NCBI GenBank assembly: GCA_946478985.1
Contig: CAMLDZ010000036.1
Coordinates: forward strand, 1 to 28,705
DNA: 28,705 nt
Source of the DNA: an uncultured Solimonas sp.
GTDB lineage: Bacteria; Pseudomonadota; Gammaproteobacteria; Nevskiales; Nevskiaceae
Reading direction: 5' to 3'
The position numbers and the translations under genes are program-made. The notes beneath the pieces were generated by a model that saw only the letters and a list, made by a program, of their open reading frames with translations, was not told the origin of the DNA and ran no database searches. Positions 15,919-28,450 of the stretch are shown piece after piece (within the stretch, counting starts at the first letter, position 1; every line of letters starts with the position of its first letter).

Positions 15919-15994
15919 TGGTGGGTCGTGCAGGATTCGAACCTGCGACCAATTGGTTAAAAGCCAACTGCTCTACCGGCTGAGCTAACGACCC
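15919..15994 (-). tRNA. tRNA-Lys (anticodon UUU)
   Basis: A complete 76-nt cloverleaf including an encoded CCA. The acceptor stem GGGTCGT pairs fully with ACGACCC. The D-arm begins AGCTCAGCCGGTAGAGC. The anticodon stem GTTGG/CCAAT encloses loop CTTTTAA with anticodon TTT. The T-arm is GCAGGTTCGAATCCTGC. It appears to be a single-gene transcript with its own promoter and terminator. Confidence 0.97.
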
Positions 15995-16036: not shown

Positions 16037-16065
16037 ATGATAAACGAATGCGGCAAGCCGGTCAT
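16037..16065 (-). promoter_or_regulatory. Candidate sigma-70 promoter of tRNA-Lys
   Basis: On the minus strand, ATGACC (-35, four of six) and TATCAT (-10, five of six) are separated by exactly 17 bases. A GC-only discriminator follows, as seen in stringently controlled stable-RNA promoters. The start would fall about 35 bases before the tRNA. A 6-bp inverted repeat (16003-16019) lies in the leader. Confidence 0.5.
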
Positions 16066-16218: not shown

Positions 16219-17562
16219 ATGGCGACCGGCAGTTTCGCGTTCATGCCGCACGGCTACTGCCTGACCTGGAACCCCTGGCTGGTAGGCGAGTACGTGGTCG
16301 CCGACGCCATCATCGGTCTGGCCTACTACTCGATCCCGCTGACGCTGATCTACTTCATCCGCCGCAATCGCGGCCTGGGCTTCGGCTGGCTGTTCTGGAT
16401 GTTCAGCCTCTTCATCTTCGCCTGCGGCACCGGTCATTTCATCGACATCGTCAATATCTGGTGGCCGCACTACGAGCTGCAGGCCTCGATCAAGGCCGTC
16501 ACCGCCGCCGTCTCGATCGCCACCGCCCTGGCGGCCTGGCCGATGCTGCCGAAAGTCTCGGCGATGATCGAGTTCAACCGGCGTGCGTCGCAGGCGCTGC
16601 AGCAGAGCAATACGGCGCTGCTGCAAAGCGAGGAACGCATCCGCCTGATCCTCAAGCACGCGCCGATCGGACTGGCAATCGTCAGCCTCGAAGGCCGCTT
16701 CGTCAGTGTCAACCACACGCTCTGCGAAATGCTCGACTACTCGGAGCCGGAGCTGCTGGCGCGGACGTTCCAGGACATCACCCACCCGGACGATCTGGGC
16801 GCCGATCTGGCGCATGTGCAGGAGCTGATCGACGGCGTGCGCGATTCCTACCGCATGGAGAAGCGCTACTTCCATCGCAGCGGCCAGCTGGTCTACGTGC
16901 AGCTGGACGTGTCGGTGCTGCGCGACAGCCAGGCGCGGCCTATCCATTTCATCTCACAGATCCAGGACATCTCGGATCGTGTCGAACAGCAGCGCAGCCT
17001 GGAGCGGCGGGCGATGATCGACGACCTGACGGGGCTGCCGAACCGTCGCTCGTTTCTCGAAGAGCTGGAGCGCGTCGCTTCACGCGCGGCGCGGCTGCAG
17101 CAGCCGGTCGCGCTGCTGATGATCGACCTCGACCATTTCAAGCAGATCAACGATGCCTTCGGCCATGCTTCCGGCGACCGCGTGCTGCGCGCGATGCGCG
17201 AGATCGTGCTGCCCAAGCTGCGCGGCGGTGACATGCTGGCCCGTCTGGGCGGCGAGGAATTCGCCGCGCTGCTGCCCAATACCGGTGTCGACGCGGCCCT
17301 GCCGGTCGCCGAACGCATCCGCCAGGCGATTGCCGATGCCGGGCTGCAGTCGGTCGATGGATTGCCGGTCCAGGTCACCGCGTCGATCGGCGTGATGGCG
17401 TTCCTAGGCCAGCACGATCTGGCGCGCGCACTGGAGTACGCCGACCGCGCGCTTTACGCCGCCAAGCGTTCCGGGCGCAATCAGGTGGTCCGCGCACCGC
17501 TGCTGGTCGACGGCTGGCCGAGCGACCTGCCGCTGTCGTCGTTCCGGGGCGAATCTCTGTAG
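16219..17562 (+). CDS. Diguanylate cyclase with ethylene-receptor-like membrane sensor, PAS and GGDEF domains
   Basis: A 447-residue predicted membrane-bound c-di-GMP synthase. The N-terminal three-helix domain (about 20-112) resembles the copper/ethylene-binding domain of plant ETR1. Against my memory of ETR1, D29, Y36, I66, C69, H73 and K92 fall on its D25, Y32, I62, C65, H69 and K91, and flanking stretches agree (AYYSIPLTLIYF; CGTGHFIDIVNIWW; KAVTAAVSIATA). A PAS domain (about 137-260) with HAPIGLAIVSLEG and ITHPDD follows, then a GGDEF domain (about 270-440). The active-site motif is GGEEF (344-348), with MIDLDHFKQIND upstream and an inhibitory RxxD site (R335-D338) at the canonical spacing. 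The ATG at 16219 gives a natural start; an upstream ATG at 16048 adds a low-quality 57-residue leader. The catalytic call is firm; the ligand is inferred. Confidence 0.9.
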   Translation: MATGSFAFMPHGYCLTWNPWLVGEYVVADAIIGLAYYSIPLTLIYFIRRNRGLGFGWLFWMFSLFIFACGTGHFIDIVNIWWPHYELQASIKAVTAAVSIATALAAWPMLPKVSAMIEFNRRASQALQQSNTALLQSEERIRLILKHAPIGLAIVSLEGRFVSVNHTLCEMLDYSEPELLARTFQDITHPDDLGADLAHVQELIDGVRDSYRMEKRYFHRSGQLVYVQLDVSVLRDSQARPIHFISQIQDISDRVEQQRSLERRAMIDDLTGLPNRRSFLEELERVASRAARLQQPVALLMIDLDHFKQINDAFGHASGDRVLRAMREIVLPKLRGGDMLARLGGEEFAALLPNTGVDAALPVAERIRQAIADAGLQSVDGLPVQVTASIGVMAFLGQHDLARALEYADRALYAAKRSGRNQVVRAPLLVDGWPSDLPLSSFRGESL

Positions 17563-17649: not shown

Positions 17650-17726
17650 CGGGGCGTAGCTCAGTTTGGTAGAGCGCCTGCTTTGGGAGCAGGAAGTCGC
17701 AGGTTCGAATCCTGTCGCCCCGACCA
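17650..17726 (+). tRNA. tRNA-Pro (anticodon UGG)
   Basis: A complete 77-nt cloverleaf with encoded CCA. The acceptor CGGGGCG pairs perfectly with CGCCCCG. The D-arm contains TAGCTCAGTTTGGTAGAGC. The anticodon stem CCTGC/GCAGG encloses TTTGGGA, anticodon TGG. The T-arm is GCAGGTTCGAATCCTGT. The C at position 1, unusual in other tRNAs, is typical of bacterial tRNA-Pro. It lies 25 bases from the stop of convergent zwf. Confidence 0.97.
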
Positions 17727-23694: not shown

Positions 23695-24252
23695 ATGGAC
23701 GACCATCCACTCGGACAATGGCTGTCGTACCGGGAAACGATGCCGCTGAGCTGGCAGCCCGGCGGCATTGACAGCCTGCCGGCGCTGCAGGCCGAGCACA
23801 ACCAGCGCGTGCTGGCGGCGGTGGCGACGCTGGAGGAGCGCTGGCGCACGGATGGCGATACCGCTCAGGCTCAGGAACTCGACCGTCTGCATCACAAGTT
23901 CGACGTGATGATCGAGTTGCTCGGCGCCCTGCTGCGGTCGATACAGCCGCAGGCCACGCCGCACTCGCTGCAGCTTTGCATCGCTGGCCTGAGCTGGACG
24001 CCGCAGGCGCCGTTGCCGGCAATCGGCAGCAGCCTCACCGTGAGTCTGCAACTGCACCCTTGCGCACCGAATCTCTGGCGCTGGGCCGGCGAAGTGATCG
24101 CACATCGTGGCGGTGAAATCTTCGTCCGCTTCGCGCCCATGCCGGACGCTTTGAGCGCCGCGCTGGAGCGCCACGTGTTCATGCGGCACCGTCGGTCTGT
24201 TGCCGATGCACGTTCACCTGCCAGTCGCGGACAGAGGGAAACGCCTCCCTAG
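23695..24252 (+). CDS. Atypical (tetrameric-type) PilZ domain protein
   Basis: A 185-residue cytosolic protein resembling the atypical PilZ family found beside flagellar genes in xanthomonads. A helical N-terminal half (about 25-85, ERWRTDGDTAQAQELDRLHHKFD) leads to a beta-rich domain (about 90-155, SLQLCIAGLSW, GSSLTVSLQL, EIFVRFAPM) and a closing helix ALERHVFMRHRRSVA, a hallmark of the group. The canonical c-di-GMP motifs RxxxR and D/NxSxxG are not recognisable, so it may not bind the nucleotide directly. It is 12 bases after fliS and likely co-transcribed. The assignment comes from pattern and context, so moderate confidence. Confidence 0.7.
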   Translation: MDDHPLGQWLSYRETMPLSWQPGGIDSLPALQAEHNQRVLAAVATLEERWRTDGDTAQAQELDRLHHKFDVMIELLGALLRSIQPQATPHSLQLCIAGLSWTPQAPLPAIGSSLTVSLQLHPCAPNLWRWAGEVIAHRGGEIFVRFAPMPDALSAALERHVFMRHRRSVADARSPASRGQRETPP

Positions 24253-26553: not shown

Positions 26554-26932
26554 ATGGCGGGCACGTTTCGCACCTTGCTGGTCGACGACAATCGGCCGTT
26601 CCTCACGCTCGCGCGGCATCTGCTGGGCCTGTGCCGGGAGATCGAGTTCGTCGGCGAGGGCTACGACGGCCACGACGCGGTGCGGCTCGCCATGAGCCTC
26701 AAGCCCGATCTGATCGTCATGGATCTGGCGATGCCCGGCATGGGCGGCCTGCAGGCCACGCGGCTGATCAAGGCGCAGGACGCCGCACCGCGCATCATCA
26801 TTGCCTCGCACTACGACGACGCGGCGCACCGCGAGTTCGTCGCGCAGGTCGGGGCGGAAGGTTTCGTCAACAAGCGGCGCTACGAGATCGAGGTCTCGGC
26901 GCTGGTGCGCGCCTGGGCGCAGGGGGAAGCTC

Positions 26933-26940
<8 letters not shown>
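26554..26940 (+). CDS. Single-domain response regulator, VemR-like
   Basis: A 128-residue stand-alone receiver with all switch residues: D11 and D12 (LLVDDNR), phospho-acceptor D57 ([11 protein letters not shown]), switch S85 (IIASHYD) and K107 (EGFVNKRR). It has no output domain, so it must act through a partner. In Xanthomonas the equivalent position between rpoN2 and fleQ is occupied by VemR, which works with FleQ and sigma-54 in motility and exopolysaccharide control; homology is inferred from context and size. GAGGGAG precedes the ATG, 18 bases after rpoN. The stop overlaps the fleQ start by eight bases. Confidence 0.88.

Positions 26941-28450
<1,510 letters not shown>

Follow-up and report, generated by a model that had tools for sequence, protein, structure and literature searches.

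A predicted ethylene-receptor-like membrane domain joined to a PAS domain and an apparently intact diguanylate cyclase in a probable Nevskiales bacterium

Introduction

The membrane domain of the plant ethylene receptor ETR1 binds Cu(I), with the metal held by C65 and H69; the source names I35, P36, I62, C65 and H69 as essential for binding, S98 as having a moderate effect on binding, and T94 as acting in signal transmission (PMC6586836). Mutation of D25 abolishes ethylene binding by ETR1 and K91 is involved in output, according to a second source, which equates D35, C75, H79 and K98 of AzoEtr1 with D25, C65, H69 and K91 of ETR1 and reports that residues 1-130 of AzoEtr1 bind ethylene (PMC11819568). 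Varied outputs have already been reported for bacterial ethylene-domain proteins in a review, whose figure may include GGDEF. Literature searches on an ethylene-domain/GGDEF fusion, covering mostly open-access papers, found no paper describing one; relatives of the protein treated here are already named 'sensor domain-containing diguanylate cyclase' in databases.

Here we describe such a protein, encoded within a 28,705-nucleotide stretch of DNA (the window), and compare it with its relatives in one bacterial order and across the phylum.

Results

An ethylene-receptor-like domain followed by PAS and GGDEF domains

Translation and Pfam placed the open reading frame and its domains where the original prediction had put them (Table 1). 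Pfam and alignment likewise bore out its central claim that an ethylene-receptor domain carrying the binding residues is joined to a PAS domain and a diguanylate cyclase that looks intact. A profile match to the ethylene-binding family had been set beforehand as a test; ETR1_N reached 118.3 bits where the curated cut-off is 27, a height at which the match is not due to chance, and PF25487 matched in 0 of 14 control genomes. The GGDEF domain scored 160 bits (cut-off 23.8), and a histidine-kinase output is absent from the protein, Pfam giving neither HisKA nor HATPase at E<=1. A second in-frame ATG upstream, at 16048, would give a product of 504 residues. The near-identical database protein P0002, which is unnamed and identical over residues 1-130, is also 447 residues long, and the next nearest protein, P0003, shares 72% identity across the whole length.

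The nearest named relative found shares 60% identity with the window protein across residues 7-424 and is from Solimonas soli, a member of the order Nevskiales, and the source bacterium of the window probably belongs to that order. This relative came from a contig scan with the whole protein as query; it alone was used, the loci ranked below it being left out as matches to the PAS/GGDEF part only or partial helix overlaps. A plasmid search limited to 5000 records turned up none that contained 80% of the query at a single location.

Table 1. Features of the gene and its surroundings, in positions of the window.
Feature	Coordinates	Strand	Evidence or note
EBD-PAS-GGDEF protein (P0001), 447 aa	16219..17562	+	ORF, translation, Pfam, AlphaFold2 model
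PHGYC motif, residues 10-14, outside Pfam domain	16246..16260	+	conservation
Ethylene-receptor-like membrane domain ETR1_N (PF25487), residues 22-115	16282..16563	+	E=1.8e-34
D29 (= ETR1 D25)	16303..16305	+	alignment
C69-G-T-G-H73, putative Cu(I) ligands (= ETR1 C65, H69)	16423..16437	+	conservation
K92 (= ETR1 K91)	16492..16494	+	covaries with D29
Signalling helix/linker, A103 to A148 of PAS motif APIG, distance 45, in heptad phase	16528..16659	+	
PAS domain, about residues 139-255	16633..16983	+	PAS_3, PAS, PAS_8, PAS_9, PAS_4 above cut-off
GGDEF diguanylate cyclase domain, residues 265-422	17011..17484	+	PF00990 E=5.5e-47
RGGD-MLARL-GGEEF: I-site RxxD and active-site loop	17221..17262	+	direct reading
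tRNA-Lys	15919-15994	-	one flank of gene
tRNA-Pro	17650-17726	+	other flank of gene
Atypical PilZ (tPilZ), candidate c-di-GMP receptor, directly after fliS (context)	23695..24252	+	PF16823 E=5.8e-14, above cut-off
FleQ-domain sigma-54 activator (context)	26930..28450	+	PF06490 E=5.6e-13, Sigma54_activat E=1.1e-75

An AlphaFold2 model of the monomer, built from an alignment of 93 sequences (the window protein and 92 of the 120 database proteins listed), had a mean pLDDT of 91.6 and a pTM of 0.66, with 383 of the 447 residues at pLDDT 90 or more and residues 1-11 and 433-447 below 50. Helices predicted at 19-49, 56-81 and 85-147, together with hydrophobic stretches, point to three N-terminal transmembrane helices, and helix 85-147 is modelled as running unbroken from the membrane domain to the PAS domain. 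No solved structure was related to the membrane domain by sequence. The top fold matches were the PAS-GGDEF-EAL protein PA0861 (5xgd) and a LOV-activated diguanylate cyclase (8c05), so the soluble part appears ordinary.

Residues of the putative copper and ethylene site

The membrane domain was aligned with 181 others, one of them that of ETR1. In this alignment D25, Y32, I35, P36, I62, C65 and H69 of ETR1 fall on D29, Y36, I39, P40, I66, C69 and H73 of the window protein, and K91, T94 and S98 on K92, T95 and S99. The six correspondences drawn originally (D25/Y32/I62/C65/H69/K91 with D29/Y36/I66/C69/H73/K92) were thereby reproduced. As a list of ligand residues the six stand in part: D25, I62, C65 and H69 hold, K91 is to be moved to an output role, and I35 and P36 had been left out. 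With Y32 counted among the binding residues, as we presume it should be, all seven residues needed for ethylene binding (D29, Y36, I39, P40, I66, C69 and H73) are present. The D-C-H-K spacing (D29/C69/H73/K92) is 40/4/19, as in AzoEtr1, and 40/4/22 in ETR1. C69 and H73 occupy positions i and i+4 of predicted helix 2 and, being four residues apart in one helix, would be able to share a face.

The 288 rows compiled (the window, 201 of 202 database proteins, 60 frames from the order and 26 of 29 loci from the phylum) reduced to 276 unique domains, over which conservation was counted. C69 is cysteine in 275 and H73 histidine in 272 of these; among the 99 unique domains of GGDEF members the copper-ligand positions are cysteine in 98 and histidine in all 99. 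Members were classed as GGDEF or other by the pattern GG[DE][EQ]F, the class 'other' being Pfam-checked in the 32 order members only.

The sequence PHGxC ahead of helix 1 is also nearly invariant (H11 in 268 of 276 unique domains, C14 in 266). C14 aligns with what we take to be C6 of ETR1 and may form a dimer disulphide or a copper entry site. Two loci of the phylum sample, L195 and L196, carry a divergent ETR1_N in which F-T-A-V-C-R replaces Y-I-P-I-C-H at the binding positions.

The cyclase output

Both the intact GGEEF motif (residues 344-348) and the RxxD inhibitory site (R335-G-G-D338, five residues upstream), as first claimed, are read directly in the sequence. All 28 GGDEF members of the order share the Asp, Lys, Asn and His of the motifs and the GG-E-F positions without variation. 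By pattern, RxxD is missing from one of the 28, L154, and stands at its canonical spacing in the other 27; in the larger set, 97 of 99 unique GGDEF members have it at the spacing seen in the window. The window protein is thus apparently an intact diguanylate cyclase. Three proteins (L147, L160 and L169) hold an ethylene-receptor domain with GGDEF and EAL together.

The cyclase form in the order and the phylum

PF25487 was found in 55 of 85 genomes of Solimonas soli's order versus 29 of 398 genomes drawn phylum-wide, S. soli included. Sixty of the 61 matches in the order were recovered as frames, one 29-residue fragment at a contig end being dropped. GGDEF was present in 28 of the 60, all confirmed by Pfam, and three of these also had EAL; HATPase_c was found by Pfam in 29 of the 32 frames without GGDEF. 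From the 32 matches of the phylum draw, S. soli, a 26-residue fragment in one genome (G352) and three weak matches that were not recovered by BLAST (L197-L199) were removed. The remaining 27 distinct frames, taken as lying outside the order since their genomes differ from those of the order search, yielded no GGDEF (0 of 27) by BLAST with the window's GGDEF domain. The EBD-PAS-GGDEF architecture is therefore common in the order and not unique to the window, and among the genomes sampled the cyclase form is peculiar to the order; other owners of it are possible among the database proteins of undeclared kin.

Joint variation at the D25 and K91 positions

Position 29 is aspartate in 51 of 99 GGDEF members versus 164 of 177 others. 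The full set of seven binding residues is retained by 51 of the 99 GGDEF members and by 154 of the 177 others. The other 48 unique GGDEF members have N, H, S or E at position 29 (H in 21 of the 99) with the cysteine and histidine kept. An acidic residue at 29 and a basic one at 92 occur together in 213 domains, neither in 50 and a mixed state in 13. By corrected mutual information the 29-92 pair ranks second of 5356 column pairs, and third of 5356 in a smaller set. This coupling agrees with a polar bond between D25 and K91 that is cited from modelling in PMC11819568. The pair is jointly lost in about half of the GGDEF members, the window belonging to the canonical half.

Changes at the two positions were also placed on a tree built without columns 29 and 92, which drew on about 108 columns and is weakly resolved. 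Eight of 11 changes at 92 shared a branch with the same change at 29, where 0.48 were expected, a number reached in none of 5000 random draws. A 'collapsed' repeat gave identical numbers and for that reason is not counted as a second test. A stricter independent-pairs test was not significant on either of two data sets (median p 1 and 0.5), and given this result and the weak resolution of the tree, the joint change was rejected as a proven ligand switch.

Many GGDEF-linked domains nevertheless appear, from their residues, to have re-made the D25/K91 part of the site. Ethylene is not to be assumed as the ligand of members lacking D25, since mutation of this residue abolishes binding in ETR1 (PMC11819568). 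With the pair replaced in about half of the GGDEF-linked relatives, ETR1_N is to be equated with ethylene across the group only with caution, and selection on the group as a whole is probably not for ethylene binding of just the ETR1 kind.

Heptad phase of the linker between membrane domain and PAS

A rigid coiled coil that passes a rotation or shift is predicted to keep a fixed heptad phase. The distance from A103 to the PAS motif APxG was 45, 52 or 59 in all 50 proteins with a plain motif, and a PAS profile built from these 50 was used for a wider count. The GGDEF members showed distances of 45 (2 proteins), 52 (19), 58 (1) and 59 (41), so that the linker between sensor and PAS equals 3 modulo 7 in 62 of 63, with L155 as the sole member out of phase. 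Linker length changed at least eight times on the tree, the out-of-phase change counted, and the shortest form, 45, is that of the window and P0003. Proteins of the other class with a PAS match were of mixed phase (26 with a distance under 110), and the fixed phase is accordingly claimed for GGDEF members only. Two further linkers, leading directly from the EBD to GGDEF, showed no clear phase.

Gene neighbourhood

All frames at the 60 order loci that reached a length of 80 residues were clustered, and families present in five or more loci were examined. GGDEF-type loci occurred in only three of the 25 neighbour families listed, ranked by their number of such loci (10, 7 and 6 loci), and these three are taken as shadows, their example frames lying on the opposite strand over the gene itself. 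Kinase-type loci shared many families, such as a frame whose first residues are receiver-like, present at 24 of the 32 loci; 'shadow' and 'receiver-like' were judged by position and letters, and a family with 26 loci was left uncounted as it overlies the gene. Across the 60 loci, then, no conserved neighbour family accompanies GGDEF, in contrast to the kinase loci. This difference is what would be expected between a stand-alone device and a kinase with a partner, although it may stem in part from closer kinship of the kinase-type genomes. The window's own neighbours recur elsewhere only as single-gene matches in two of the 60 loci, so the neighbourhood offers no clue.

The original description of the bacterium as flagellated agrees with a fliS match above cut-off and a FleQ-domain sigma-54 activator inside the window. 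The activator is preceded by rpoN and a stand-alone receiver and scores below cut-off with each of the 25 NCBIfam models listed. The tPilZ protein is perhaps tied to flagella, and it and the FleQ-domain activator are possible targets of c-di-GMP within the window.

Discussion

The reading we prefer, to which we give an even chance of being right, is that of a one-component membrane receptor in which Cu(I) and ethylene at an ETR1-type bundle set c-di-GMP synthesis through helix 3, the PAS domain and the GGDEF domain. A homodimer would hold Cu(I) between C69 and H73 on the second helix of the bundle, and ethylene or a similar small alkene would bind this copper from within the membrane. The resulting change would travel along helix 3 into the coiled coil of fixed heptad phase, through PAS to the GGDEF dimer, and alter c-di-GMP synthesis, with RxxD providing product inhibition; the PAS domain may carry a ligand of its own. 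The copper-loaded, gas-free state might be the one in which the cyclase is on, in which case ethylene would lower c-di-GMP and favour motility over biofilm. This guess follows the Azospirillum case, where ethylene and disruption of AzoEtr1 both reduce biofilm and AzoEtr1 mutants predicted not to bind ethylene fail to rescue, as described in PMC11819568. The same paper reports that ethylene increases biofilm in Synechocystis, the opposite sign, which leaves the direction of the response weakly founded and the weakest step of the proposal. The literature searched contained no binding or enzyme data for GGDEF members, and the exchange of D29 in 48 of the 99 unique GGDEF members also counts against this reading.

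Sensing of Cu(I) itself, or of another copper-binding gas such as CO, as the signal that sets cyclase activity is an appreciably less probable explanation, though one to be taken seriously. It would account for the retention of C and H in almost all members while D25 and K91 are not kept, the histidine that takes the place of D25 in 21 of the 99 unique GGDEF domains might serve as an extra metal ligand, and the ETR1 membrane domain does bind Cu(I); against this, the window keeps the canonical set including I39, P40, D29 and K92, and the femtomolar copper affinity reported for ETR1 (PMC6586836) would suit a fixed cofactor better than a sensor of changing copper levels. That the membrane domain serves mainly as anchor and dimeriser, with PAS as the real sensor, seems distinctly improbable: in its favour, PF00989 (PAS) matches 23 of the order's 28 GGDEF proteins and the best fold matches are to solved PAS-GGDEF structures, but the near invariance of C, H, Y, I, P, T and S is not expected of a mere anchor, no single PAS family matches more than those 23, and some members seem to have no PAS domain. 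A degenerate or inactive cyclase is very improbable, as no damage is seen in GGEEF, RxxD or the remaining catalytic motifs and no point in its favour was found.

Turning from the window's receptor, preferably read as a Cu(I)/ethylene-controlled cyclase, to its relatives, we suggest tentatively, and with more doubt than belief, that the Nevskiales made ETR1_N into stand-alone gas- or copper-controlled c-di-GMP synthases, about half of which would have exchanged the D25-K91 pair (N or H with M or L) while keeping the copper ligands, giving non-ethylene receptors beside canonical ones like that of the window. The natural variation at D25/K91 beside fixed C65 and H69 offers a ready set for separating residues of ligand choice from those of signal passing. 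A plant hormone gas, another copper-binding gas or copper may steer the behaviour of a bacterium via c-di-GMP. If ethylene or another copper ligand does act on the protein, a plant hormone gas would directly feed a main bacterial second messenger without a kinase relay, and ethylene-receptor signalling would become measurable as enzyme activity in a single polypeptide.

Among known systems, the structures of PA0861 (5xgd) and the LOV-activated cyclase (8c05) resemble the window protein in linking a sensor domain to GGDEF and differ in having no ethylene-receptor membrane domain. Plant ETR1 shares the binding residues and the positions of K91, T94 and S98, and the rest of its domain make-up is not known to include GGDEF. 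It differs in being a histidine-kinase receptor. SynEtr1/UirS of Synechocystis (slr1212) is likewise a bacterial protein with an ethylene-binding domain and affects motility and biofilm; unlike the window protein, it is also a light sensor with a two-component sensor-kinase output through response regulators. AzoEtr1 of Azospirillum brasilense (EBD-PAS-histidine kinase) also has an N-terminal ethylene-binding domain followed by PAS, with the identical D/C/H/K spacing of 40/4/19. According to PMC11819568 it has a histidine-kinase output, and its gene is immediately followed by one for a response regulator, whereas the window protein ends in a diguanylate cyclase whose relatives have no common neighbour family.
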